Part shown: piece by piece, positions 35,343-46,720 of the stretch
Layout of the letters: each line of letters opens with the position of its first letter
How positions within the stretch are numbered: position 1 is the stretch's first letter
Source of the DNA: Archaeoglobus profundus DSM 5631
GTDB lineage: Archaea; Halobacteriota; Archaeoglobi; Archaeoglobales; Archaeoglobaceae
DNA length: 64,000 bases
Assembly: GCF_000025285.1 (NCBI RefSeq)
Contig: NC_013741.1
Span: 62,001-126,000, forward strand
Direction of reading: 5' to 3'
Notes under the pieces: generated by a model
What the model saw: only the letters and a program-made list of their open reading frames with translations
The model's database searches: none
What the model was told of the DNA's origin: nothing
Made by a program: the position numbers and the translations under genes

Positions 35343-35431
35343 ATGCTCTACATTCAAATGCTCTCATAGTTTCCTTTCACTGGAAGTGATTGTTTGAAAG
35401 TTTCGAAGCCTTTGATTCATCAGAAAGGTTA

Positions 35432-35474
35432 AGCGGGCCGGGGGGATTCGAACCCCCGACCGCGGGATTAAGAG
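35432..35474. repeat. Left attachment copy (attL), truncated tRNA-Lys 3' end
   Basis: 43 nt match the copy at 46342-46385 except for one G in the G-run (6 here, 7 at the right). It holds the 3' acceptor strand, T arm and part of the anticodon arm of tRNA-Lys on the minus strand, but breaks off after the anticodon loop, so it is not a tRNA gene. Confidence 0.9.
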
Positions 35475-36265
35475 GCTTTACAATCGATTACAAAGAGATT
35501 AGAGCTGATTTCATCGATTGGATTTATTCCCGGGTTGATAGAGCAACCGCAGACAAATACGTAAAACTCCTTGACAGGTTCTTGACCGAACCCATTACAT
35601 CACCGTCAGACGTGAGCAACATCATTAAAAGCATAGATAAGAGAGGAGTTAGAAGATGGTTCATCAACGCTTTCCGCAACCTCCTGAAGTTCCTTGAATA
35701 CGAAAGAGAATGGGATGAAGCACTAATCAACAAATATCGGAAAGTTGCAAAGACTGAGAGATCAGGAGTCCGTGAAGTATTCATAACGACTGAAGAACTG
35801 CTTGAAGCTTATGAGAACATTCTACCGAAATATCGCATCCTCTTCAAACTCATAGTCTATTCGGGCATGAGACTTGATCAAGCTTGTGATATGCTTGCAG
35901 GTTATGAACCCGAAAACTTGGTTATCAAAGAAGATCTTGAATTAGCTCGATACCCTATGGCATCGATTGGTAAGGGTTTCAAAAGAGCTTATTGGGCGTA
36001 TATGCCTATAAGATTCGTTTCAGAGCTTGAAAGAACGTTTATCAAATACGGAACTGCAAAGAAGGCAATCTACTATAAGAGGGTGTCGGCTTTGAGCATT
36101 AGAAAATGGCATCTTAACTTCATGATCGAAAACGGTGTTCCTGAGAGTGTTGCGGACTTCATTCAGGGAAGAGCATCCGTGACGGTTGGATCGACTCATT
36201 ATCTCAACAAAACAAAACAAGCAGATCAGTTCTATTCAAAGCTTGTTGACAAATTCCCTCTCTAA
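35432..36265 (+). pseudogene. Integrase, C-terminal catalytic fragment (int-C)
   Basis: The frame enters from the flanking chromosome and becomes meaningful inside the att copy (GGFEPPTAGLR). The following protein is a tyrosine recombinase of the SSV1/pNOB8 type: arm region YKEIRADFIDWIYSRVDRAT, catalytic Arg in YSGMRLDQACDML, KWHLNFMIENGVPESVADFIQGRAS with the His and second Arg, and the nucleophile Tyr in THYLNK. Integration separated it from its start, so it is inactive until excision restores the gene. No stop or frameshift is seen in it. Confidence 0.9.
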
Positions 36266-36372
36266 TTTCATAAACGTCGAAGAATCTTTCGAGCTTCAAG
36301 GGTCATAATATGACAACTTCCAAGGGGATATGATTCAACTATGGGTTGAGTAAAAAGTTTGGGTGAAAATAT

Positions 36373-36570
36373 TTAGGAGATTAAAGCTTCAGCCAATCTC
36401 TTAGATATTTCGGATTTAGCGGGTAATAGGATTTCAATGCCTAAAACTTCATCATTTTCATCCAAATCGATTATGATATTGTCAGCTAAGGGTTCTGACG
36501 TTTTGACTTTTCCATCTTTCAGGCGGATGTATAGGGCATTAACTTCCGGGTCAAACTCGACTGAAACCAT
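36373..36570 (-). CDS. DUF2283 protein, probable antitoxin
   Basis: 65 residues starting VSVEFDPEVNALYIRLKDGK and ending in LGIEILLPAKSEISKRLAEAL, the pattern of DUF2283. These small acidic proteins commonly follow DUF4258 genes, and the pair is regarded as a type II toxin-antitoxin system. Its start overlaps the upstream DUF4258 gene by 20 nt, supporting coupled expression. Toxicity is not shown here. Confidence 0.8.
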   Translation of the reverse strand: MVSVEFDPEVNALYIRLKDGKVKTSEPLADNIIIDLDENDEVLGIEILLPAKSEISKRLAEALIS

Positions 36571-36805
36571 ATCTCCTCAACCTCTCCTCATCAACTCTCA
36601 ATACCGTAACAACTACAATTTCGTCATCCTGTTCTTCGAATATTACAACTATAAACTTATCGTCACATCGTTTATAGGATGCTTTCCTACCAAATTTAAC
36701 ATCGATAGTCTCTGTTGGATTCCTCAAAACTTCTTCTATTTGTTTAAGATCAATTGAACGCTCTTTTGCCCTGTTTAATGCATGCTTTGATAATCTTATT
36801 TTCAT
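36551..36805 (-). CDS. DUF4258 protein, probable toxin
   Basis: 84 residues with LSKHALNRAKERSIDLKQIE, EEVLRNPTETIDVKFGRKAS and VVVIFEEQDDEIVVVTVLR, matching DUF4258. The fold is distantly RelE-like, suggesting an RNase-type toxin, which is inference. It is the first gene of the pair with DUF2283 and sits just inside the left end of the element. Confidence 0.8.
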   Translation of the reverse strand: MKIRLSKHALNRAKERSIDLKQIEEVLRNPTETIDVKFGRKASYKRCDDKFIVVIFEEQDDEIVVVTVLRVDEERLRRYGFSRV

Positions 36806-37410
36806 AGCACACCCTCAATCTATATTCAAATTCTAAAAATTTGTCTTTTCCTATTCTCGAGACTTAGTAAGATACCAACTTTTGATCCAGATGGATGTTC
36901 ACATGGTCAGTATTACTATTCTTCGCTCTTATATTTCCTCTAAGAGGCAGTTACACAAGAAGAGTTGAGAAATCTTTTCCAGCTGAAATAACCGTTCTGA
37001 TACCTTCTTATTTATCTCCTCTCAAGCGGTGTTACTGAAGGTCAATTCAATTACTCATCCAACTTCAGAATTTCAGCTGAGAGGAATTCTACATAAAGGA
37101 TGAATAAAAATGATTTCGAAAGGCTTAAAGAAATTCTTTTCATATAACGGAACGATGGTTGAAGGAGTAAGATTGTTTTTGTCGGCTGACACACGAAAAA
37201 TTTTTACACCTCACACGGCGGATAGATAGTCCGCCATGTATTCCTCAATCTCCCCTCTAATCCCTTCATTCAGCAAAATCTCCCCCATGAGCGGTCTTCT
37301 CTAACTTTGTGAGAGTTTGTTTTTATAGGAAAATATGTTATAAAAATTTAGTTTAGTTCATATATATACTATGTGAAGAAAACAAGTTAGAAATTAAACA
37401 AATCAAACAT
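36806..37410. other. Gene-poor stretch with possible remnants
   Basis: No convincing full-length gene in these 605 nt. One 47-codon frame (36895-37038, plus) is described separately. A 25-codon minus frame (37211-37288) and a 39-codon plus frame near 37110-37230 lack supporting signals. GGCGGA/TCCGCC can form a hairpin around 37218-37236. An AT-rich run with catatatatacta near 37362 resembles a promoter but no gene follows it on either strand. Confidence 0.5.
36895..37038 (+). CDS. Possible short membrane protein or glycosyltransferase N-terminal remnant
   Basis: A 47-codon frame begins MFTWSVLLFFALIFPLRGSY with one hydrophobic helix, and ends FPAEITVLIPSYLSPLKRCY. The string ITVLIPSY is what the Rossmann start of family 2 glycosyltransferases looks like, preceded by a membrane segment. 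The downstream part is missing, so it may be a broken gene rather than a working small protein. There is no clear ribosome-binding site. Confidence 0.3.
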   Translation: MFTWSVLLFFALIFPLRGSYTRRVEKSFPAEITVLIPSYLSPLKRCY

Positions 37411-37977
37411 TCAAAGGACATCGAGCACAGTCATGCTATACGATTTTTCAACTAACTCGTTCAGTCTTCTTTCAATTTCAGCATTTACCTTTTCATTCTC
37501 CTTTCGCATGGCAAACCAAACGAGGTCTTTCAGGCTAATCTCCTTGATTTTCCCTTCTTCAACCAATGTTTCAATTTCTACAATTCTTTTCGCTTCTTTC
37601 TCCTTCTCCTCGATAATTTGGTCAATACTCTCCTTGAAAACTTGGCGAACAGTCATCCCTGAAATATAAATTCCAAATTTTTTATAGATTTCCTTACTAA
37701 TTTTTTGGTAACCGTAACCCTTCTCCTCTCTCAACCGCTTGATCTCCTTTAAAACATCTAAAGAGAGATTGTCCACCTTCCATCTCCTTCTCCTCCCGTT
37801 AGACTCGAAGAGTAGTTTCAGCCTGTCCAATCTTATAGGGCATCTTTCAAACCTTTCAATGACAAACTCGATCTCCTCTGCTGTTAAACCCTTGTCCGCT
37901 AAAAGGAACGGCAGAACCATTGTAACGTGATAACGAGTCTTTACGGTCTTGAAACGACCGTCAAACGGTGCGTCCAT
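37411..37977 (-). CDS. Unknown protein with HTH-like motif, downstream of radical SAM gene
   Basis: 188 residues, charged and helical, with no family I recognise. Its centre has GYQKISKEIYKKFGIYISGMTVRQVF, helix-turn-helix-like and similar to a stretch of the next gene upstream (HELYKKKGVWVEPGVIYLFL). ATG 37977 was chosen because GGTGAT lies about 7 nt before it; GTG 37998 is the longer option. It overlaps the upstream gene's 3' end, so the two are translated together. It is the last gene of a long minus-strand operon. Confidence 0.65.
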   Translation of the reverse strand: MDAPFDGRFKTVKTRYHVTMVLPFLLADKGLTAEEIEFVIERFERCPIRLDRLKLLFESNGRRRRWKVDNLSLDVLKEIKRLREEKGYGYQKISKEIYKKFGIYISGMTVRQVFKESIDQIIEEKEKEAKRIVEIETLVEEGKIKEISLKDLVWFAMRKENEKVNAEIERRLNELVEKSYSMTVLDVL

Positions 37978-38669
37978 CTCTCCATCACCCTCCTCCACAA
38001 TTTAGGTTTTTCCAACTCACAATTCTCAACAACCTTATCTATCAAAGCTGAATCGATTAGCATAGGGTAGTAACTCGCTACATTGACGTAAAAGAAGAGG
38101 AGCTGAAGATTTACCCTTTCGAACTTCTCGGAGAACTCCTCATAAACCGAAACTGAATTCCTGTAATTCTCCTCAACTGCAAGGATAAAATCTTGCTCGA
38201 GATGCCCTACTTCCCTCAAAGCCTTCACCTGAAGTTCATCGTGAGCTTCCTTCACTCTAATAGTTTCTTCTACGTTGAAGCGGTTTAAGAAAAGGTAAAT
38301 AACACCCGGTTCAACCCAAACTCCCTTCTTCTTGTATAGCTCATGCGCAACCTTTCGTCCGCTTAAGTTACTGAGTTCACCGCTTATTCTGACAACTTCT
38401 TTAAGAATCCACGTTGGTAGTCTGAGTATTCTAACGCGTTTCCAATAGTTTCCCGCTTTGAATAGTGAAACGCCAAAATAGTAGTATATCAAACCATTAA
38501 CCTCATGTTCAAACAAACCGGACTCCAAACCCATCTCGTAGAACCTTTTTAATATCTTGCGTTTGTTAACCGAATCCAACTTGCCAAACCACTCGTTTAG
38601 AGCGCCTTTAAAATATCTCCTCTCCATCCTCCAAAATTTTGAGAAATAGCAACGATTCATCCCTTTCAT
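37941..38669 (-). CDS. Unknown 242-residue protein directly after the radical SAM gene
   Basis: Basic, mostly helical protein of 242 residues with no recognised family. It contains SGRKVAHELYKKKGVWVEPGVIY, which aligns with the HTH-like motif of the following gene. It starts one base after the radical SAM stop with GAGGTG six nt upstream, so expression is tied to that enzyme. Substrate carrier, partner or regulator are all possible. There are three or so cysteines but no zinc pattern. Confidence 0.65.
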   Translation of the reverse strand: MKGMNRCYFSKFWRMERRYFKGALNEWFGKLDSVNKRKILKRFYEMGLESGLFEHEVNGLIYYYFGVSLFKAGNYWKRVRILRLPTWILKEVVRISGELSNLSGRKVAHELYKKKGVWVEPGVIYLFLNRFNVEETIRVKEAHDELQVKALREVGHLEQDFILAVEENYRNSVSVYEEFSEKFERVNLQLLFFYVNVASYYPMLIDSALIDKVVENCELEKPKLWRRVMERWTHRLTVVSRP

Positions 38670-39986
38670 TCAACACACCTCCCGCTCTCCCAATTTTACA
38701 TTTATAGATTCGTTCACGATTTTGAAATCCTTCAGAAAACGACTTTCAGTCTTCTCGATAACACCTTCTCGTTCCAAGAATTCAAGAATGGGTTTAACAT
38801 CTTCAAACTTGATCGGTTTGATCAGCTTAATCGCTTGACTGAGGGGACAAGATGTGAACGTGTGAATGAGATAACTCAACAAACCCTTAAAAACATAGGT
38901 TTTATTATTGCGGAGGTAGTATATAAGTAATGCATCCTCCGCACTGAAGAAATGAAGCTCGTTGCTTTTAGGTTTAAATTGGTAGATCACATCCTTTTCA
39001 TAGATAGGTTCGAAATCTGGAAACTCAACAAATTCTTTCCCCTTATACTGTCTGATCAGTTGTGGACCATACCTATAGGCAAATTGAATAATTTCCGCTA
39101 ACCTGTGCTTACGCCACGAGCCTACCCGAGCGAAGTGCATATCACTGTAAACGTATCCATCAGGTTCAATCTCCCAGCAATAAAGCGCTGGAGTATGTGC
39201 AATGTTAGCATCGAAAGTTAAGGGAAGTTCCGAATATGTTTCCTTAAGCTCTTTGCAGAGTTCTGCGAACTTGGTTAGATCGAGAATGCTTGATTTGTGT
39301 TTCTTCATATTCCCAACAAGTGTAGGTCTGAAAACATCAATCCTTGTTAGATAACCGTATTCATCTTGAAGCGTTGCCAACCTATCGATGAGTAGTGGAA
39401 TTTCATCCACGTTCTCCTTCAGAACAGCCACGTTGACAACAAAATCGTAGCTGAGATGATTAGTTTTCCGCTCCAAAGACTCTTCCAAGCGATTAAGAGT
39501 ATCAAACATTTTTTCGAGGAATTGCAACCCTTTTTGCGCCCTACTTCTTGTTACTTCAACCGCTCCCCTCCCGACACCGTGAATCGATACTTTATAGCTT
39601 TTAACACTCGTGAGAAGAAGATGCGCATCGTCGTCCGATTTCAACCGAATTCCTGAAGCGTTCGTTATTATGTTCAAGCGCGGATACCCTGTGAACAACC
39701 TTAAAATGTTCCTCCAATATCTGTAAATTGTCGGCTCTCCACCCGTCAGTCCGAAGAACATTTTTTCCTTTTCTAATGCCCGAAGTATCATGAAGAGCTC
39801 ATCAGGATCGAATTCTAACGGTTTTGGGCAACACTTATAGCAGAAGATGCATCTCCAATTGCACTTTTGTGTGAGGGATAAGTTAACTACCCTTGCGGTT
39901 TTAATTTGCTCGTTCTCAACCGTGTTTAGCCAATTGGTGTTATTGTTATTATACTCCCTAAAAAGCTCGGAAAACATCCCCTTCAT
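38670..39986 (-). CDS. Radical SAM protein with degenerate SPASM-like region and PqqD-like tail
   Basis: 438 residues. The SAM [4Fe-4S] motif CNWRCIFC is at residues 42-49 and GLTGGEPTIYR at 79-89. ALYCWEIEPDGYVYSDMHFARVGS lies where SPASM/twitch domains begin, but with only one cysteine. The last 100 residues (FFSAEDALLIYYLRNNKTYV and ILEFLEREGVIEK) look like a PqqD-type winged-helix peptide-binding domain. That design suggests a peptide-modifying enzyme, but no precursor peptide was recognised. The start overlaps the previous gene by 4 nt. Finding it in a mobile element is unusual. Confidence 0.75.
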   Translation of the reverse strand: MKGMFSELFREYNNNNTNWLNTVENEQIKTARVVNLSLTQKCNWRCIFCYKCCPKPLEFDPDELFMILRALEKEKMFFGLTGGEPTIYRYWRNILRLFTGYPRLNIITNASGIRLKSDDDAHLLLTSVKSYKVSIHGVGRGAVEVTRSRAQKGLQFLEKMFDTLNRLEESLERKTNHLSYDFVVNVAVLKENVDEIPLLIDRLATLQDEYGYLTRIDVFRPTLVGNMKKHKSSILDLTKFAELCKELKETYSELPLTFDANIAHTPALYCWEIEPDGYVYSDMHFARVGSWRKHRLAEIIQFAYRYGPQLIRQYKGKEFVEFPDFEPIYEKDVIYQFKPKSNELHFFSAEDALLIYYLRNNKTYVFKGLLSYLIHTFTSCPLSQAIKLIKPIKFEDVKPILEFLEREGVIEKTESRFLKDFKIVNESINVKLGEREVC

Positions 39987-40204
39987 ACGACATCAATCCC
40001 CTTCTCCCTCTGTCCGTTAATTAAACCCGATACTCTCTCAAAAACTCTCATAAAAACTTTCTCAACCTTCTTCAGGTCATCATCCGCCTTTACCGTGAGT
40101 TCGAATCCCATTCCATTGTCATCGCCCTTAATCACTAAGCGGATGAATGAGCCACTAAGTGCTTCCTCCCCTTCGATAATCTCCTCCCTTTCTTCCTCAA
40201 CCAC
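39983..40204 (-). CDS. Small acidic protein of unknown function
   Basis: 73 residues, very acidic at the start (VEEEREEIIEGEEALSG), then a possible beta-sheet and helix (FIRLVIKGDDNGMGFELTVK). Start GTG 40204 with GGTGA a few nt before. It overlaps the radical SAM start by 4 nt, so it could be that enzyme's substrate or partner; no conserved peptide motif supports this beyond position. Confidence 0.6.
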   Translation of the reverse strand: MVEEEREEIIEGEEALSGSFIRLVIKGDDNGMGFELTVKADDDLKKVEKVFMRVFERVSGLINGQREKGIDVV

Positions 40205-40208
40205 GATC

Positions 40209-40400
40209 TCACCTGATTAATCGTTTCTCTTTCTTCACAGCCTTTCGGATGCAAACGGGAATTCCGTAAATCCACCTGAAATACTTGCATTTGCCAAATT
40301 CTCCTTTCTTACAAACAAATTCGCAAAAGTATTGATCGACAACCTCACCGATTCCTGATTCTTCGATCATTTTGATAGGATCAAACTTCTTTGCCTTCAT
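40209..40400 (-). CDS. Small Cys-containing protein
   Basis: 63 residues with CEFVCKKGEFGKCKYFRWIYGIPVC, i.e. four cysteines spaced like a small zinc or iron-sulfur knuckle, and a basic tail (AVKKEKRLIR). ATG 40400 with GAGGTGA before it. It is 4 nt from the next gene. Unknown function; nucleic-acid binding is plausible. Confidence 0.65.
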   Translation of the reverse strand: MKAKKFDPIKMIEESGIGEVVDQYFCEFVCKKGEFGKCKYFRWIYGIPVCIRKAVKKEKRLIR

Positions 40401-40409
40401 CCTCTCACC

Positions 40410-40772
40410 TCAAACAGTATGCTTAAGCAACTCCTTAGCGCTCTCAAAACCGCATAATGGATCAGTCTTGAGTTTTTCAGTCAGTTTGAGGAGAACAATG
40501 TATTTCGGCAACCTTCCCATGTTCAACTCCCTTGCCTTCTCCTCCCATGCTTCTAAGCTTTCAAACCCTGAATACTTCCATAAGAGCTTTCTGAACACTT
40601 TCAAGTTTTCAAAAACTGCAATAACTCTTGCTTTTGCGAAAACAATGTTTCTGCTATCTCTAATCACGATTTCCCTTCCAATCAAATCGTGATACTTCCC
40701 GTTTCTCATTGTTGCAACAACTCCCTTCCTCATCAGCTGGGAAACAGCTCTCAGACTTCTAAACCGCATCAT
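40410..40772 (-). CDS. ASCH-like domain protein
   Basis: 120 residues with KYHDLIGREIVIRDSRNIVFAKARVIAV, a middle GFESLEAWEEKARELN and a final YIVLLKLTEKL. This order (small beta-barrel, Gly-Phe-x-Ser loop, helix) resembles ASCH domains, which bind RNA or modified nucleotides. ATG 40772 follows GGGAGGTGG; TTG 40784 is a longer option. It overlaps the end of the upstream gene. Assignment is by pattern, not certain. Confidence 0.55.
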   Translation of the reverse strand: MMRFRSLRAVSQLMRKGVVATMRNGKYHDLIGREIVIRDSRNIVFAKARVIAVFENLKVFRKLLWKYSGFESLEAWEEKARELNMGRLPKYIVLLKLTEKLKTDPLCGFESAKELLKHTV

Positions 40773-41199
40773 ACCACCTCCCAAAACTCCTTTTCATGGA
40801 AGGAGCATGATAAACAAAATTCTTCAATAGGAAACGTCTCAGCTCTCGATAATCGCCAACGAAAACGGGTTCTTCCCGTTCAAAGTTGTAGAAATGCCGT
40901 CTTGGGAATTTTATGTTGACCGGCACATCGTAAACTGTTACCTCATTCTCGACATCATCAACGAATAAGAGCAAGAGAGGAACTCTCAAGGCTTTGGCAA
41001 CCTTCTTAAGCGTGATTAATTGGTAAATGTTTGCAAAATGCCTTTGAGTGTGCTTTTCTTCGGCAACAAGTCTTATCGTGTTTCCAACTTCAAGGACATA
41101 ATCGATGTTCGTGAGAACTATTCCCTCTTCACTCTGGATACCGTTCAACGCTTTGGTAAGAGAATTTTCAAGGAAATTGCCACAGAATGGGCACTTCAT
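40759..41199 (-). CDS. Zinc-ribbon plus PD-(D/E)XK-like nuclease candidate
   Basis: 146 residues. CPFCGNFL at residues 3-10 is half of a zinc ribbon. Then IDYVLEVGNTIRLVAEEKHT, with an Asp followed after a strand by E-x-K, and a helix plus LRVPLLLLFVDD, is the arrangement of PD-(D/E)XK nucleases. Such enzymes process DNA in mobile replicons. The start overlaps the primase gene's stop by 4 nt. Cleavage activity is inference. Confidence 0.55.
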   Translation of the reverse strand: MKCPFCGNFLENSLTKALNGIQSEEGIVLTNIDYVLEVGNTIRLVAEEKHTQRHFANIYQLITLKKVAKALRVPLLLLFVDDVENEVTVYDVPVNIKFPRRHFYNFEREEPVFVGDYRELRRFLLKNFVYHAPSMKRSFGRWYDAV

Positions 41200-42293
41200 C
41201 TCCTAACACCTCTCGAGACTTCTATCTCCTTTCTCCTGAACCAATCGATGAAATACTGCGTTTTCTTGTGATCGTAATTCTCAGAATGGCGGAAGACTTC
41301 GTGAATCTCCTCATCCGTGAAGCCTTCCTTTATCATTAAAATGATTAGGTGCGCTCTTGCGTTCCATTCGTTTCCATGCCTCTCCTTGAGTTTTGGATCA
41401 TTCACGAGCTTCCCATACTTCCTCAAAATCTGAGCATACTTCTTTATCCTTTCAAGCCTCCATCTCGAACCAATAGTCCTTTCCTTTCTTGGTTTGCTTC
41501 TCCAAAATCTCTCAAAGGATTTCTCTTGGAGCTTTCTTTGAGCAATTATTCTCTCAACCTCTTCAAGTATTTCCATTACTTGGCTTTCAGTTGGTTTCCA
41601 AAGCTCGTATCCCTCCCAATCTTCAAGCCATCCGGGATATACGCCAAGCTTAACTTTCCTGATTTCTACCTCATCAAGGGGAACCTTGAAACAACGTGTC
41701 TTTTCGTGGATGCTGAAGAATTCTCTAATGGCATGTCTCTTCGCCTTGAATCCTGCCGTGTCAATGTCCAATCCGTCAAAACCTGCACAATACCCAATGA
41801 TGTTGAACAACGCTTCCTTGAACAATCGTAGATTAAAACCCTCTGGAAGTTCTTCAGGAAGTTTGGTATCAGGATCGGCTATAATGTGGAAGTGGAATGA
41901 TCTGTTTCCCGTGTAACCCATTGTATATTCGATTTCAAGAGCTTCAAGGGATGCTTGAATCCATCTACCCTTTTTGACAAGTTCTTTCTCATTTTCGATA
42001 TCAGGATCGAGAACAAGTTCCCAAGGCAGAATTTCTCTCCTTAATACAGGTGCAAACAGTATCACGTCGTGAAGCTCTTCAGCTTCTTTCCAAGGCGTAT
42101 TGAGCTCATTCTTGAATCCTGCGCCATTGAACACGAAAGGAATTTCGTAAGGGAATCCTCTAACGAGCTTGAAGTAAATGTGCTTCTCCCTCAAAGGATG
42201 AACCCACGTCTTGAGATATTCCTCTTTCATCCTCCACCAACTTGCGATATAATTTCCCCACTCACCATCAAGCGCTTTGGCAAATGGGTGCAT
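41196..42293 (-). CDS. Primase-like protein of the archaeo-eukaryotic primase superfamily
   Basis: 365 residues. The metal-binding motif is LVLDPD (Asp96, Asp98), the second motif is YTGNRSFHFHI (near residue 128-137), and a third acidic region GLDIDTAGF is followed by FFSIHEKTR. This is the order of the AEP active site. A C-terminal helical domain (from about 290) may bind the template. It likely starts DNA chains when the element replicates. ATG 42293 lies 6 nt after GGAGGTGA; it overlaps the helicase gene by 26 nt. Confidence 0.8.
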   Translation of the reverse strand: MHPFAKALDGEWGNYIASWWRMKEEYLKTWVHPLREKHIYFKLVRGFPYEIPFVFNGAGFKNELNTPWKEAEELHDVILFAPVLRREILPWELVLDPDIENEKELVKKGRWIQASLEALEIEYTMGYTGNRSFHFHIIADPDTKLPEELPEGFNLRLFKEALFNIIGYCAGFDGLDIDTAGFKAKRHAIREFFSIHEKTRCFKVPLDEVEIRKVKLGVYPGWLEDWEGYELWKPTESQVMEILEEVERIIAQRKLQEKSFERFWRSKPRKERTIGSRWRLERIKKYAQILRKYGKLVNDPKLKERHGNEWNARAHLIILMIKEGFTDEEIHEVFRHSENYDHKKTQYFIDWFRRKEIEVSRGVRR

Positions 42294-43851
42294 AAGCAAT
42301 CACCTCCTCCAAAAATGACTTGTATTCAACGAGTGGAGCAACGAACAAGGCTTTTCGTGCTCTTGTTGATCCAACGTAAAAGACTCTCAACTCATCATCT
42401 CGATGTCCGTTGTTTATTGCTGAAACAATTGGAGAAGTTATGGCATCTGCCAAGAACACGATATCAGCTTCCGCTCCCTTTGAAGCGTGAATCGTGTCGA
42501 TGTAGAGGTTGATCTTCTCGAAATCAATTGGTTTCCAAGCTTTCTCAAGGAGTTTCTTTGCTCTCTTCCTTCTAAGAGCTATCAGGTCGAGGATGGGTAA
42601 TTTATGGAGAGCTTCAAACAGGGTTATCGGGATGTTACCGCTTTGAATCAGATTGGTAAGTATTTCCTTTTGCTCTTCAGAGATAATGTCAGGATTCGCA
42701 TTTTCAACAAGGAACTTTAGCTCATCAAGGTTGAGCTTCTCCTTTCTTCTCAATTTGGCAACGATGTTCCATGCTGTCACGAATTCCTTATCCCAAAACG
42801 TGAAACCCTTCAAACGCTTGAAGGGGATTGCATTCTCAAGCAAAATTGACTCAGCTTGATAAACCATCCTGTTGGTCCTAAATAAGACAAAAACCTTGAG
42901 GTTGGGATGCCTTCTTGCCGTTCCTACCGCGCAACTCAGGAACTCCCTTATATCCATCTTTGGAAGTATTCTTACAACTCCCGCATCCTCACGCGGTTCG
43001 ATCTCTTTTTCCTTTCTTCTTTCAACCTGTGTGATGATCTGCTTGGCAAAATTCCAAACCCTCGAGGGTAACCTGTGAGTTTTCGAGAGGATGACTTCCT
43101 CACCTTTCAAGTCGAGGTAGAAATCAGGTTTTGCTCCCTTCCATCCGTAAATGGCTTGATCATCATCCCCCGCCAAGTAAACCCTCTCAAGTTGTTCAAT
43201 TGTAGTTTCGACAATTTCAAACTCCAAGCGGTTGAAATCTTGAGCTTCATCAATGAATCCGATCTTTGCTTCAATCTCAATTCCTTCCTCAAATGATTCT
43301 ATAAGGAGATCGACGTAATCAAAGAATCCCGCATTCTCCTTGAAGTTCAACCAACGCTCTATAATTGATCCATAATTGTAATTTATATTATATAACATCT
43401 CGAGACACTTTCCAATATCACGGCTTTCAGGGTAGAACTCGCCAATGACAGCATTCCAAGCGGTGAAAACTCTGTTTCCTAACGCATCTGAAGCACCAAA
43501 ACCGTCATCCCTTTCAAATGGAATCCCTTCCTCACGACAGAAGCGTTCCTGCAGTCCTTCAACAAAGCCTTTCGATTGCATTCTCCTTATCAAATCGGGT
43601 GAAATCTTCCCTGTCTTGATAAGGTTCTTCAAGCATAAACCGTGAAGTGTTCTGAAGTAAGGTGCAACTCTGCTTCCTCTTAATATTCCTACACGTTCAC
43701 AAACCTCGTTTATTGCAGAATTAGAAAATGAAATGAAAACGACATCCTTCAAGGAAAGGTCATCGTTCTGGATTTCTTCCCTCAGCTTTGAGATGAGTGT
43801 TGAGGTCTTACCTGTTCCTGGTGGTCCGTAAATTTTGATAACTTCACTCAA
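42268..43851 (-). CDS. UvrD/Rep-like superfamily 1 helicase
   Basis: 527 residues with Walker A YGPPGTGKTSTL, Walker B GFIDEAQDF, LAGDDDQAIYGWKGA (motif III), VFVLFRTNR, and motifs V/VI DTIHASKGAEADIVFL and VFYVGSTRARKALFV. It unwinds DNA and is probably the replicative or repair helicase of the element. TTG 43851 is preferred because GGAGGTGA lies just upstream and it overlaps the previous gene by 8 nt; a start at 43893 would overlap by 50 nt. Confidence 0.9.
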   Translation of the reverse strand: MSEVIKIYGPPGTGKTSTLISKLREEIQNDDLSLKDVVFISFSNSAINEVCERVGILRGSRVAPYFRTLHGLCLKNLIKTGKISPDLIRRMQSKGFVEGLQERFCREEGIPFERDDGFGASDALGNRVFTAWNAVIGEFYPESRDIGKCLEMLYNINYNYGSIIERWLNFKENAGFFDYVDLLIESFEEGIEIEAKIGFIDEAQDFNRLEFEIVETTIEQLERVYLAGDDDQAIYGWKGAKPDFYLDLKGEEVILSKTHRLPSRVWNFAKQIITQVERRKEKEIEPREDAGVVRILPKMDIREFLSCAVGTARRHPNLKVFVLFRTNRMVYQAESILLENAIPFKRLKGFTFWDKEFVTAWNIVAKLRRKEKLNLDELKFLVENANPDIISEEQKEILTNLIQSGNIPITLFEALHKLPILDLIALRRKRAKKLLEKAWKPIDFEKINLYIDTIHASKGAEADIVFLADAITSPIVSAINNGHRDDELRVFYVGSTRARKALFVAPLVEYKSFLEEVIAYAPICQSA

Positions 43852-44908
43852 TAAAATCACCTCCAATCTCCTCAATAGCTTTTGAGAAGTCATCTTCTTT
43901 CTTGACTTCAGGAGTCCAATCTTCGCCTTCTCTTTTCAGAATCGCCTTAATAGCTTCGAGATTAAATGCCCAAAAGTATCTTCTTTGCTCCTTGATACGA
44001 AGACGTATAGATGCCCTGTTTGGATTTGCAAGAAGTCTTCTCACCGACTTTGCAACTTTCCTCATGCTCTCGTAAACACCTACCTCCTCAAGAAGCTCCT
44101 TAAGGAGCTCAGAATCAACAAGAATGATGTCTCCTTCAACGAAAAAGCCACGTTTCGGTGGCACTTTACCTTCCTTCAATAGCTTGACATCGTAAAATTC
44201 CCTCTTTGTGGTTAAAACCTCGATAACGGCTTCCTCGATCGATGACTCTACATCAAAGGGTTCTCTAACAATCACGGCGTTATCGACCCAACTTTGATAA
44301 ACCTTTAATGCGCTTTCTTCATCGAATGGAGGATTTGGCGGAATGTAATAACACTTTAAGAAAAGCTCGTTGAAGAGGGCTACATTAACTTTCATTCCGT
44401 CCTTACCTTGCTTTGCGATCTTTTTGATCGGAATTATTTCACGACGACCTGCTATTTTGATGTCCAACTCTGACGTTGAATGGAACAGTAGAACAGATTC
44501 GGTGTCTATAATCAAACGATCAGCTGGGTGTAAACTCTCAGCGCATTCTTCCTCCTTGCAGAAACCGAGATTTCTCACATAATCACATGAGAACTGCGGA
44601 ACATCGAGGAGCTCGAGTAATTTATCAGGTGACAGATCGAGATTGTGAACTTTCAGGAAGGTTTTTGCAATTGACAGGCGCTGTGACTCTGTCAATCCTC
44701 TTCTCTTTGCCCATGAGAGTATTACTTTCAAGGCCTCAGGAGAGGAGCACTCTCTTGCTTTCTTGACACAGATGGGTTCAAATCTTGAATTCAAGCCGAT
44801 GTCCTGTGTGTCCCCACTTGTCCCGTTTGTCCTATTTGTCCCACTTGTCCCGCAATTTTGAGCGTTGAAATTATTGTCCATATTATGGGACATATGGGAC
44901 AAACGCAT
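43844..44908 (-). CDS. Unknown element protein with Cys motif, possible replication partner
   Basis: 354 residues. The N-terminus is a low-complexity GTSGTNRTNGTSGDTQ stretch encoded by the iteron-like repeats. Near residue 110 FSCDYVRNLGFCKEEEC may bind a metal or cluster, similar to small cysteine motifs in primase partners. The rest is helical and basic at the end. I do not recognise a family. GGAGGAGG precedes ATG 44908 closely; downstream ATGs at 44893 and 44881 are possible. First gene of the replication block. Confidence 0.6.
   Translation of the reverse strand: MRLSHMSHNMDNNFNAQNCGTSGTNRTNGTSGDTQDIGLNSRFEPICVKKARECSSPEALKVILSWAKRRGLTESQRLSIAKTFLKVHNLDLSPDKLLELLDVPQFSCDYVRNLGFCKEEECAESLHPADRLIIDTESVLLFHSTSELDIKIAGRREIIPIKKIAKQGKDGMKVNVALFNELFLKCYYIPPNPPFDEESALKVYQSWVDNAVIVREPFDVESSIEEAVIEVLTTKREFYDVKLLKEGKVPPKRGFFVEGDIILVDSELLKELLEEVGVYESMRKVAKSVRRLLANPNRASIRLRIKEQRRYFWAFNLEAIKAILKREGEDWTPEVKKEDDFSKAIEEIGGDFIE
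44800..44902. repeat. Iteron-like repeats around the start of the replication operon
   Basis: Four tandem 9-nt units TTGTCC(C/T)(G/A)(T/C) occupy 44818-44853, preceded by a variant tgtgtcccc. Farther on, TTGTCCATAT (44874-44883) faces ATATGGGACAA (44892-44902) as a dyad. Direct plus inverted copies of one core near a primase/helicase operon fit a replication origin or an autoregulatory operator. The tandem part is in the coding frame of the protein's N-terminus. Confidence 0.6.
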
Positions 44909-45089
44909 CACCTCCTCCTATGAGTTTGCAAACCTCCTGTTTACAGTCGGTCGGAAAATCTTCATTAAAGATACAATTTTTTATGTTTCTTTGATCTCTT
45001 ATCATAAATGGACATTTTTCGGAAAAGCTTTTAAAGTCAATGACGGATTTCTTTTTAAGATTCCCGCCCTTCGCTGTTGGAGTTGACAT
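44883..45089 (-). CDS. Small Cys-containing protein
   Basis: 68 residues with CPFMIRDQRNIKNC and DCKQEVCKL, four cysteines that could hold one zinc. ATG 45089 lies behind GAGGTGG. It overlaps the next gene by 26 nt. Function unknown; nucleic-acid binding is a guess. Confidence 0.6.
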   Translation of the reverse strand: MSTPTAKGGNLKKKSVIDFKSFSEKCPFMIRDQRNIKNCIFNEDFPTDCKQEVCKLIGGGDAFVPYVP

Positions 45090-45091
45090 TT

Positions 45092-45298
45092 TTAACCACC
45101 TCTCTCAAAACCGCTCTTCCATTGAGATGGAATCTCCACACCCTCACGCTCAGCTTTTTCAAGGATCGCAATTCTCACAACTGCTGATTCTGATGTTTGA
45201 AGTTTTTCAGCGAGTTTTTGGATTACATAGGCGATTTCGAGAGGCATTGAGACTGTTTTTGTGACAACAATCCTCCCCACTTCTACCACCCCCTTCAT
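45092..45298 (-). CDS. Ribbon-helix-helix regulator
   Basis: 68 residues with a beta-strand start (GRIVVTKTVSMPLEIAYVIQ) and two helices (KLAEKLQTSESAVVRIAILE), the ribbon-helix-helix pattern. It would dimerise on palindromic DNA, and the divergent gap with the wHTH gene carries several inverted repeats. It begins the minus-strand operon that includes the replication genes, so it may control it. Confidence 0.75.
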   Translation of the reverse strand: MKGVVEVGRIVVTKTVSMPLEIAYVIQKLAEKLQTSESAVVRIAILEKAEREGVEIPSQWKSGFERGG

Positions 45299-45402
45299 TT
45301 GTTTGTTTGTTTAACAAACAATTCTCTTAAAGATTAAAAAAGTTTCGTTCGTTATCTTAACAAACGTTAGGTTTTTATGTGTTAGTTACCTAACAAACAA
45401 AC
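45299..45402. promoter_or_regulatory. Divergent operator region between the two element regulators
   Basis: TTGTTTG-TTTAA-CAAACAA is an inverted repeat at 45303-45321 close to the RHH start. GTTAGTTACCTAAC (45381-45394) lies between a TATA-like gtttttatgt (45371-45380) and the wHTH ATG, an ideal repressor site. AACAAAC recurs at 45359 and 45393. One or both regulators probably bind here. Confidence 0.6.
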
Positions 45403-46080
45403 ATGGTTAGTAAAAGAGAGCTCGAGATTCTGGGATTCATAATTGGAGGAAAAAAGTATTTTCACGCAATCCAAGAAGCTTTAGGGCTTAAGAAACCGAT
45501 TGTGAGCGAATACCTATCTAATTTGAAAAACAAGGGTTTAATTATAGAAAGACAAGATCCAAATGATAGGAGGAGGAAACTTTACGAAATCAATCCTGAA
45601 GAGTTTGTTTTCACAACTGTGAATGAAATTATATCCTTTATTGAAAAATACATTGAGCTAACTGAGGAGGAGAAGAAAGAACTCGAAAAGGTGTTAAGGC
45701 ATCCCTCTGCTCATGAATATTTCAAAAAAAGGCTTGAATTGATCATAAGTTCGGGTGAAAAGCTCAGCGTTGAAGATGAGATATCCGCTTTCGTTGATGG
45801 TATTGTTGCAGTTAAGCTGTTTGAGGAAGCTTTCAAGGATATATATAGGAAGTTTGCCAAAGACTTCGCAAGGGAGTTGGTTAAAGGAACATCTGTAGCT
45901 TCAACATCTCATCTTCTCGAGATTGCCGAAAACCTCCCAATGTGGTTTGTTGAGAGATGGTCGAGTCTTGAGCGTTTCAGGAAATCTGCAATCGGTCAAG
46001 CTCTTATTAGTATACTTGTAGCTACACGAGATTTATTACAGAAGAAAGATATAATTAAGAAGAAGTTCTTGAAAGGGTAG
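45403..46080 (+). CDS. Winged-helix transcriptional regulator
   Basis: 225 residues. The first 70 form a MarR/ArsR-like winged helix (YFHAIQEALGLKKPIVSEYLSNLKN, then NDRRRKLYEINPEEF). The rest is helical with no recognised ligand domain. ATG 45403 sits about 27 nt after a TATA-like box, so it is leaderless, and the operator between them suggests autorepression. It is the main plus-strand gene of the element besides the integrase. Confidence 0.82.
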   Translation: MVSKRELEILGFIIGGKKYFHAIQEALGLKKPIVSEYLSNLKNKGLIIERQDPNDRRRKLYEINPEEFVFTTVNEIISFIEKYIELTEEEKKELEKVLRHPSAHEYFKKRLELIISSGEKLSVEDEISAFVDGIVAVKLFEEAFKDIYRKFAKDFARELVKGTSVASTSHLLEIAENLPMWFVERWSSLERFRKSAIGQALISILVATRDLLQKKDIIKKKFLKG

Positions 46081-46180
46081 TAGTGTAAGCAGCAACGCTT
46101 ATTTTATTCTTGTAAAAATTATTAAACCTACTGCCAACTACCTTTAGCAAACCTTATTTTATTCTTGATCAAGAATCATT

Positions 46181-46385
46181 ATGCCAAGACGTAAGGGAGA
46201 CAAGACATTTTTGCACCTCTACGTAGATAAAAATATTCTTGAGAGAGCTAAGCAGATAATCCCTAATCTGTCGGCTTTCGTTGAAGCGGAACTTGCAAAG
46301 GCTGTTATCTTGGCTGAAAGAGGAATACTACCCAACTTTGGAGCGGGCCGGGGGGGATTCGAACCCCCGACCGCGGGATTAAGAG
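46181..46385 (+). pseudogene. Integrase, N-terminal fragment (int-N)
   Basis: ATG 46181 encodes RRKGDKTFLHLYVDKNILERA and further to AERGILPNFGAGRGGFEPPTAGLR, 68 residues ending in the att core. The next residues after the core are read from the tRNA gene and are meaningless. With the fragment at 35432-36265 the integrase becomes complete (68 + 263 = 331 residues). It shares the start of the SSV-type integrases, which often carry the attP site within the gene. Confidence 0.88.
46342..46385. repeat. Right attachment copy (attR)
   Basis: 44 nt matching the left copy except for an extra G. The base series covers the 3' acceptor strand, T arm and anticodon arm of tRNA-Lys on the minus strand. 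Confidence 0.9.
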
Positions 46386-46418
46386 TCCCGCGCTCTAACC
46401 TGGCTAAGCTACCGGCCC
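46345..46418 (-). tRNA. tRNA-Lys (anticodon CTT)
   Basis: Cloverleaf: acceptor GGGCCGG with CCGGCCC, anticodon stem CGGGA with TCCCG around loop CTCTTAA (anticodon CTT), T arm GGGGG-TTCGAAT-CCCCC. CCA is not encoded. The element is integrated in its 3' half, but the element supplies the missing end, so the gene is intact. Confidence 0.95.
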
Positions 46419-46450
46419 CCAGTAAGGGTGCACGATCGGATTTAAAAAGC

Positions 46451-46720
46451 TTATCCTCTGTATCTAAGGCAGTAAACGAAGAGAACTCTCACCCTTCCCT
46501 TTCTCAATCCTGCGAATTTCGTGCTGAATTTAACTTCAAAATTCAGCAACTTCTTCAGAATTGAGATGAACTTTCTTGCATCGTTCACATCCTCGAAATA
46601 AACATCCACTCCTCCTTTTACCTTCTCAACATTGACGTTGAACTTGTAAGCCTTTGAAATAAGGTTTTCAAGCCTCTCCTCTTCGACATCCCTTATTTGA
46701 ACTATGCACGGATGTTTCAT
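46451..46720 (-). CDS. Conserved archaeal protein, possibly NMD3-related
   Basis: 89 residues, MKHPCIVQIRDVEEERLENL to the end KGRVRVLFVYCLRYRG. The pattern of alternating strands and helices and the tail FAGLRKGRVRVL weakly recall NMD3-type ribosome proteins. A TATA-like cttatatta lies 25 nt before ATG 46720, a leaderless start; farther upstream candidates lack a promoter. It reads toward the tRNA-Lys gene 32 nt away. Confidence 0.5.
   Translation of the reverse strand: MKHPCIVQIRDVEEERLENLISKAYKFNVNVEKVKGGVDVYFEDVNDARKFISILKKLLNFEVKFSTKFAGLRKGRVRVLFVYCLRYRG

Follow-up and report, generated by a model that had tools for sequence, protein, structure and literature searches.

A rare radical-SAM enzyme as possible accessory cargo of integrative plasmids in Archaeoglobi

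A radical-SAM gene within an integrated element of Archaeoglobus profundus DSM 5631 can best be explained as rare accessory cargo of integrative plasmids of the SSV-integrase type, and its product most likely modifies a peptide or protein; we give this reading a probability of about one half. That the gene is a rare accessory follows from the unlinked occurrences of the enzyme and its neighbours, namely a syntenic element in genome G035, several elements carrying only the small protein encoded next to it, a second intact enzyme copy in G018 and a fragment in G016. We analysed a stretch of 64,000 nucleotides (the window) from a genome of 1,563,423 bases in two contigs, and searched 59 Archaeoglobi genomes for each part of the element, with enzyme homologues accepted at E<=1e-8.

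Table 1. Features of the integrated element and of the region around the enzyme gene (positions are those of the window).
Feature	Position	Strand	Remarks
SSV-type split integrase, C-terminal part	35390..36265	+	PF16795, 151 bits
Integrated element, 10.9 kb	35435..46385		Between two 40-bp att repeats, 95% identical; right repeat inside tRNA-Lys
195-aa protein, probable HTH, motif KEIYKKFG	37411..37998	-	HTH_32 E=2e-4, below Pfam cut-off
242-aa protein, motif HELYKKKG	37941..38669	-	Related to the 195-aa protein over the HTH-like segment
ATGAAAGGGATG	38658..38669	-	At start of 242-aa gene; second of the two exact matches in the window
Radical-SAM enzyme, 438 aa	38670..39986	-	Core 32-~220; auxiliary region around C270, degenerate; probable PqqD/RRE-like domain at the C-terminus, ~350-415
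ATGAAGGGGATG	39975..39986	-	At enzyme start codon; nearly repeated where the 242-aa gene starts
73-aa acidic protein, computed pI 4.5	39983..40204	-	In several elements; not tied to the enzyme
63-aa protein, four Cys	40209..40400	-	76% identical copy in second element of the same genome, without the enzyme there
124-aa protein, ASCH-like by eye	40410..40784	-	PHROG 17595, E=5e-7; 89% identical copy in second element
146-aa backbone protein, CPxCG and PD-(D/E)XK-like D33...E47-E48-K49...Q60 pattern	40759..41199	-
PriS-like primase	41196..42299	-	PDB 1zt2 PriS, E=9.7e-5, 3-sequence profile
UvrD-type SF1 helicase	42268..43893	-	PF00580, 86.5 bits
SSV-type split integrase, N-terminal part	46181..46564	+	Runs over tRNA-Lys; shares 69% identity with the intact G016 integrase at its N-terminus

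The mobile-element setting of the original prediction is borne out by the att repeats, the tRNA-Lys target and an SSV-type integrase gene split by the integration (Table 1). The element additionally carries a MarR-like regulator, and since no virion protein was recognised among its products in Pfam and PHROG scans, it is most likely an integrative plasmid. Our literature search returned no mention of this element together with pTN2-type plasmids. The family of the 146-aa protein matched no Pfam family and has homologues in 19 of the 59 Archaeoglobi genomes, making it a good marker for these elements. Two overlapping genes with DUF2283 (64 bits) and DUF4258 (47.5 bits) at 36373-36805 (minus strand) show a toxin-antitoxin-like arrangement. 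A second related element is present in the same genome (L047 3898-12263; G000:C1, about 1365900-1374260), where the 146- and 124-aa genes are 84-89% identical to those described here and the 63-aa gene 76%; it has no radical-SAM gene, and encodes a different 1107-aa replication protein along with small membrane proteins.

The enzyme, the 73-aa protein and the 195- and 242-aa proteins had been proposed to form one unit, based on overlaps and 1-nt gaps between their genes. All four open reading frames are indeed present and tightly packed on the minus strand (37411-40204), with overlaps of 58 nt between the 195- and 242-aa genes and of 4 nt (ATGA) between the enzyme and 73-aa genes; the overlaps thus stand, but the 1-nt gap does not, the junction between the 242-aa and enzyme genes measuring 0 nt. 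A single cassette of four genes could account for such packing on one strand. However, the operon is packed alike all the way from p355 to the 195-aa gene, and the packing is therefore not diagnostic of these four genes. Tight packing is the rule in these elements, so that genes cannot be called a functional cassette from adjacency alone.

The element in G035 is syntenic with that of the window: p355, helicase, primase, the 146-, 242- and 195-aa proteins and the integrase are 40-80% identical and follow the same order. The 242/195-aa pair is conserved there (41% and 57% identity, respectively), and beyond the window genome G035 is the only one of the 59 genomes with the pair at full length. 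Neither the enzyme nor the 73-aa gene was found in the G035 genome, and a Cys-rich 74-aa open reading frame and a 158-aa one lie between its 146-aa and 242-aa homologues. The 73-aa family occurs with no enzyme beside it in four other elements, adjoining or near the 146-aa gene in three of them (G037, G020 and contig C26 of G018) and before a zinc-finger-like gene in the fourth (G010). Each sub-group of the proposed unit is thus found without the others, and as judged from gene linkage the four genes are two or three independent groups. The comparisons with G035, G018, G016, G037, G020 and G010 contradict the single cassette, which we regard as very unlikely indeed.

The enzyme itself was found in only three of the 59 genomes, and its neighbour genes differ at every copy. 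In G018 (MAG INS_M23_B45), which holds the sole other intact copy, a full-length enzyme is encoded at a single locus on contig C91, while the 73-aa relative of that genome is located on a different contig; neither partner family stands beside the enzyme, which is preceded by a different 74-aa protein with a 4-nt overlap. A relative of this 74-aa protein in G019 has no enzyme there. On its other side the G018 enzyme overlaps by 4 nt a nucleotide-kinase-like gene (PF13521/PF01712; locus L014 15209-18360), and an upstream protein at this locus carries HELMH and is metalloprotease-like, forming a different cargo group. The third genome, G016, has two identical tandem element copies (L013 79-17616), an arrangement that could be genuine integration in tandem or else an artefact of assembling a circular form. 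At their internal junction lies an intact 330-aa SSV-type integrase, a fusion of both parts that displays the unsplit gene. As in G018, the 242/195-aa pair is missing beside the G016 enzyme.

In both G016 copies only residues 32-98 of the enzyme are present, ending at an IS605-type TnpB gene, and residues 99-438 were found nowhere in that genome. No further copies were detected in a sample of 393 Halobacteriota genomes, and when about 85,000 species genomes were scanned with two conserved patterns only G018 matched. Searches of IMG/VR, phages and plasmids gave no full-length relatives, the strict seed patterns used for IMG/VR being able to miss distant ones. The very patchy distribution, together with the truncated G016 copy, would suit a decaying hitchhiker that is at home in host-type metabolism and serves no function for the plasmid. 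Against this, both the window copy and the G018 copy are intact, and their active-site and C-terminal features are kept at only about 33% identity, a conservation that implies long selection on the enzyme, and no chromosomal homologue exists in the 59 genomes at the above threshold. We therefore consider a decaying gene improbable. As cargo, the enzyme gene occupies a variable part of the element that follows the replication genes, and is probably co-transcribed with its neighbours, with which it forms no stable partnership.

A possible trace of insertion was seen at the two enzyme boundaries. The 12-bp near-repeat ATGAARGGGATG occurs exactly twice in the window, once at the enzyme start codon and once where the next gene, that of the 242-aa protein, begins. 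Perhaps the enzyme gene was inserted between the 73-aa and 242-aa genes; this is suggestive only, because the G018 enzyme also starts with M-x-x-M and the G035 242-aa homologue with MKG, such that both starts may be native.

Examination of the enzyme sequence confirmed the predicted CNWRCIFC motif at residues 42-49, and the Pfam Radical_SAM domain (PF04055, cut-off 29.5 bits) matched with 36.4 bits in the window enzyme and 58.1 bits in that of G018. The CX3CX2C motif and the core match place the protein in the radical SAM superfamily. Window and G018 enzymes share 30-33% identity. Their core keeps CX3CX2CX3C, with the fourth cysteine in all three copies including the G016 fragment, as well as GGEPT, and S-I-H is kept in the two intact copies. 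The auxiliary region, correctly described as degenerate SPASM, has C-x-E-x-EPDGY and GSWRKH common to both intact copies, with C270 as the sole invariant cysteine between them; the multi-Cys auxiliary cluster motif of SPASM/twitch peptide maturases is absent, whereas the archaeal maturases used for comparison have several cysteines there.

The PqqD-like tail that had been suggested was supported by profile-profile comparison but not by Pfam, in which no PqqD match was found for the enzyme. We took as RRE/PqqD-type a bbb-aaa winged-helix domain homologous to PqqD, with the fold order as defined in PMC12710340. In hhalign, the two C-terminal domains jointly aligned to 15 archaeal PqqD-type domains over 67 columns with 69% probability (E 4.4e-5), spanning nearly the full domain. 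Controls remained low (150 column shuffles, <=6.2%; other element proteins, <=0.65%), and the 69% needs both sequences together, each taken singly reaching 6-7%. An AlphaFold model of the enzyme has the strand-helix order expected of an RRE, at low confidence (mean pLDDT 49.5). Among solved structures, the radical-SAM peptide maturase SkfB comes closest both by sequence (8.4e-7) and by fold (7.4e-9). Sequence comparison points to a probable PqqD/RRE-like C-terminal domain, and gives the layout of core, auxiliary region and tail listed in Table 1.

From these features we infer the chemistry of the enzyme, its peptide or protein substrate and any benefit that the plasmid might draw from it. A single [4Fe-4S] cluster, held by CX3CX2C, would cleave SAM into a 5'-deoxyadenosyl radical, which would then abstract a hydrogen from the bound substrate and leave a modified residue or a cross-link. 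Most likely a peptide or protein is bound by the RRE-like domain; its gene probably lies at another site in the element or in the host, and is probably not a dedicated precursor gene. The core similarity is generic and covers MoaA, viperin and peptide maturases alike, and therefore does not fix the substrate class. The missing auxiliary cluster, typical of peptide maturases, speaks against a peptide, and the kinase-like gene next to the G018 enzyme could point to a nucleotide substrate.

The nearest substrate candidate is the 73-aa protein, which is acidic as predicted. In a RiPP-like pair it would serve as precursor: the RRE-like domain would bind it and the enzyme would modify it. The 4-nt overlap of the two genes agrees with such a pair, as do the predicted disorder of the acidic N-terminus and C-terminal tail and the small protein encoded immediately upstream of both intact enzyme copies, likewise with a 4-nt overlap in G018. 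The 73-aa relatives in elements devoid of the enzyme, however, keep the same conserved residues, and where the family occurs argues against its being a dedicated precursor. Homology of the G018 74-aa protein to this family could not be detected (hhalign 0.9%, in the range of shuffles), and that protein has its own enzyme-free relative. Furthermore, the 73-aa protein contains no cysteine, and no small open reading frame is common to the compared loci, as a conserved precursor peptide near the enzyme would be. A RiPP-like pair is accordingly doubtful. The 73-aa protein is predicted to fold as beta-beta-alpha between its tails, with no significant PDB match for this fold. The end of the G035 158-aa protein was also compared with the 73-aa family, and the match did not rise above shuffles.

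Defence had been among the suggested functions, and a viperin-like antiviral enzyme, which would make a modified nucleotide and protect the plasmid from competing elements, would fit the kinase-like neighbour in G018. Viperin is among the fold matches of the enzyme, and PADLOC pVip was its best defence match (37.6 bits for the window copy, 65.4 for G018). Yet the NCBIfam viperin scores, 33 and 56 bits, fall far short of the cut-off of 180, whereas true archaeal viperins mostly score 186-270 bits; among the sampled genomes of the phylum, 14 have real viperins above 180 bits. When aligned to seven of these, the element enzymes were found to lack the NWH, CFxxN-type, LGRG, RWK and GxxN positions, and true archaeal viperins have no C-terminal extension. 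We thus rejected viperin membership on score, missing signature residues and the long extra C-terminus, and regard a viperin-type defence role as quite improbable.

A more specific and rather unlikely proposal, in keeping with the C-terminal RRE-like domain and the lack of a dedicated precursor, is that the enzyme modifies a folded protein of the element or host, for example the 73-aa or a replication protein, and that radical-based protein modification thereby gives the plasmid a means of control. If the enzyme does modify a protein, an archaeal plasmid would hold a radical-SAM tool that is unusual, as is its C-terminal substrate-binding domain, and that could lead to a new post-translational modification in hyperthermophiles.

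The 195- and 242-aa proteins both carry the predicted E-[IL]-Y-K-K-x-G motif and are related to each other (93 aligned residues, 25% identity, E=7e-5 in a single comparison). The motif forms the middle of an HTH-like segment: HTH_32 matched the 195-aa protein with 22.3 bits against a cut-off of 33.7, in a segment overlapping the alignment with the 242-aa protein, for which the Pfam scan gave no HTH family match. The motif therefore probably lies within a helix-turn-helix, and this similarity suggests that the two proteins are separate backbone DNA-binding candidates. No useful solved relatives were found for the 195-aa and 146-aa proteins. In other elements the same part encodes small proteins with an HTH-like segment, recognised by eye, of the form R-E-R-G-Y-S-Y...T-V-x-R-R-L.

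Among known systems, the enzyme resembles SkfB and other RRE-bearing radical-SAM peptide maturases of the sactipeptide type in that a single chain holds a radical-SAM core and, probably, an RRE-like domain. The archaeal RRE-radical-SAM fusions that we compared have this domain at the N-terminus, while in the element enzyme it would be C-terminal, and the enzyme differs from SkfB-type maturases in having neither the full auxiliary Cys set nor an adjacent conserved precursor peptide. Prokaryotic viperins (pVip) share the radical-SAM core and sometimes a kinase neighbour, as in G018; the element enzyme differs from them by its far lower scores, the absent signature residues and its extra C-terminal domain. 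The likeness to MoaA and to the tungsten-cofactor maturase (TIGR04317) is a generic one of the core (28-50 bits), below the membership cut-offs of 284-380 bits. The element as a whole resembles the SSV-integrase-type elements of Archaeoglobi such as ArcVen-P3 (PMC4158269), with which it shares the SSV-type split integrase, and the AvPV1-like proviruses (PMC10919331), all of which have an Archaeoglobi host, tRNA-gene integration and att repeats; as compared to these, its proteins have no virion match in Pfam or PHROG, and it looks like a plasmid.
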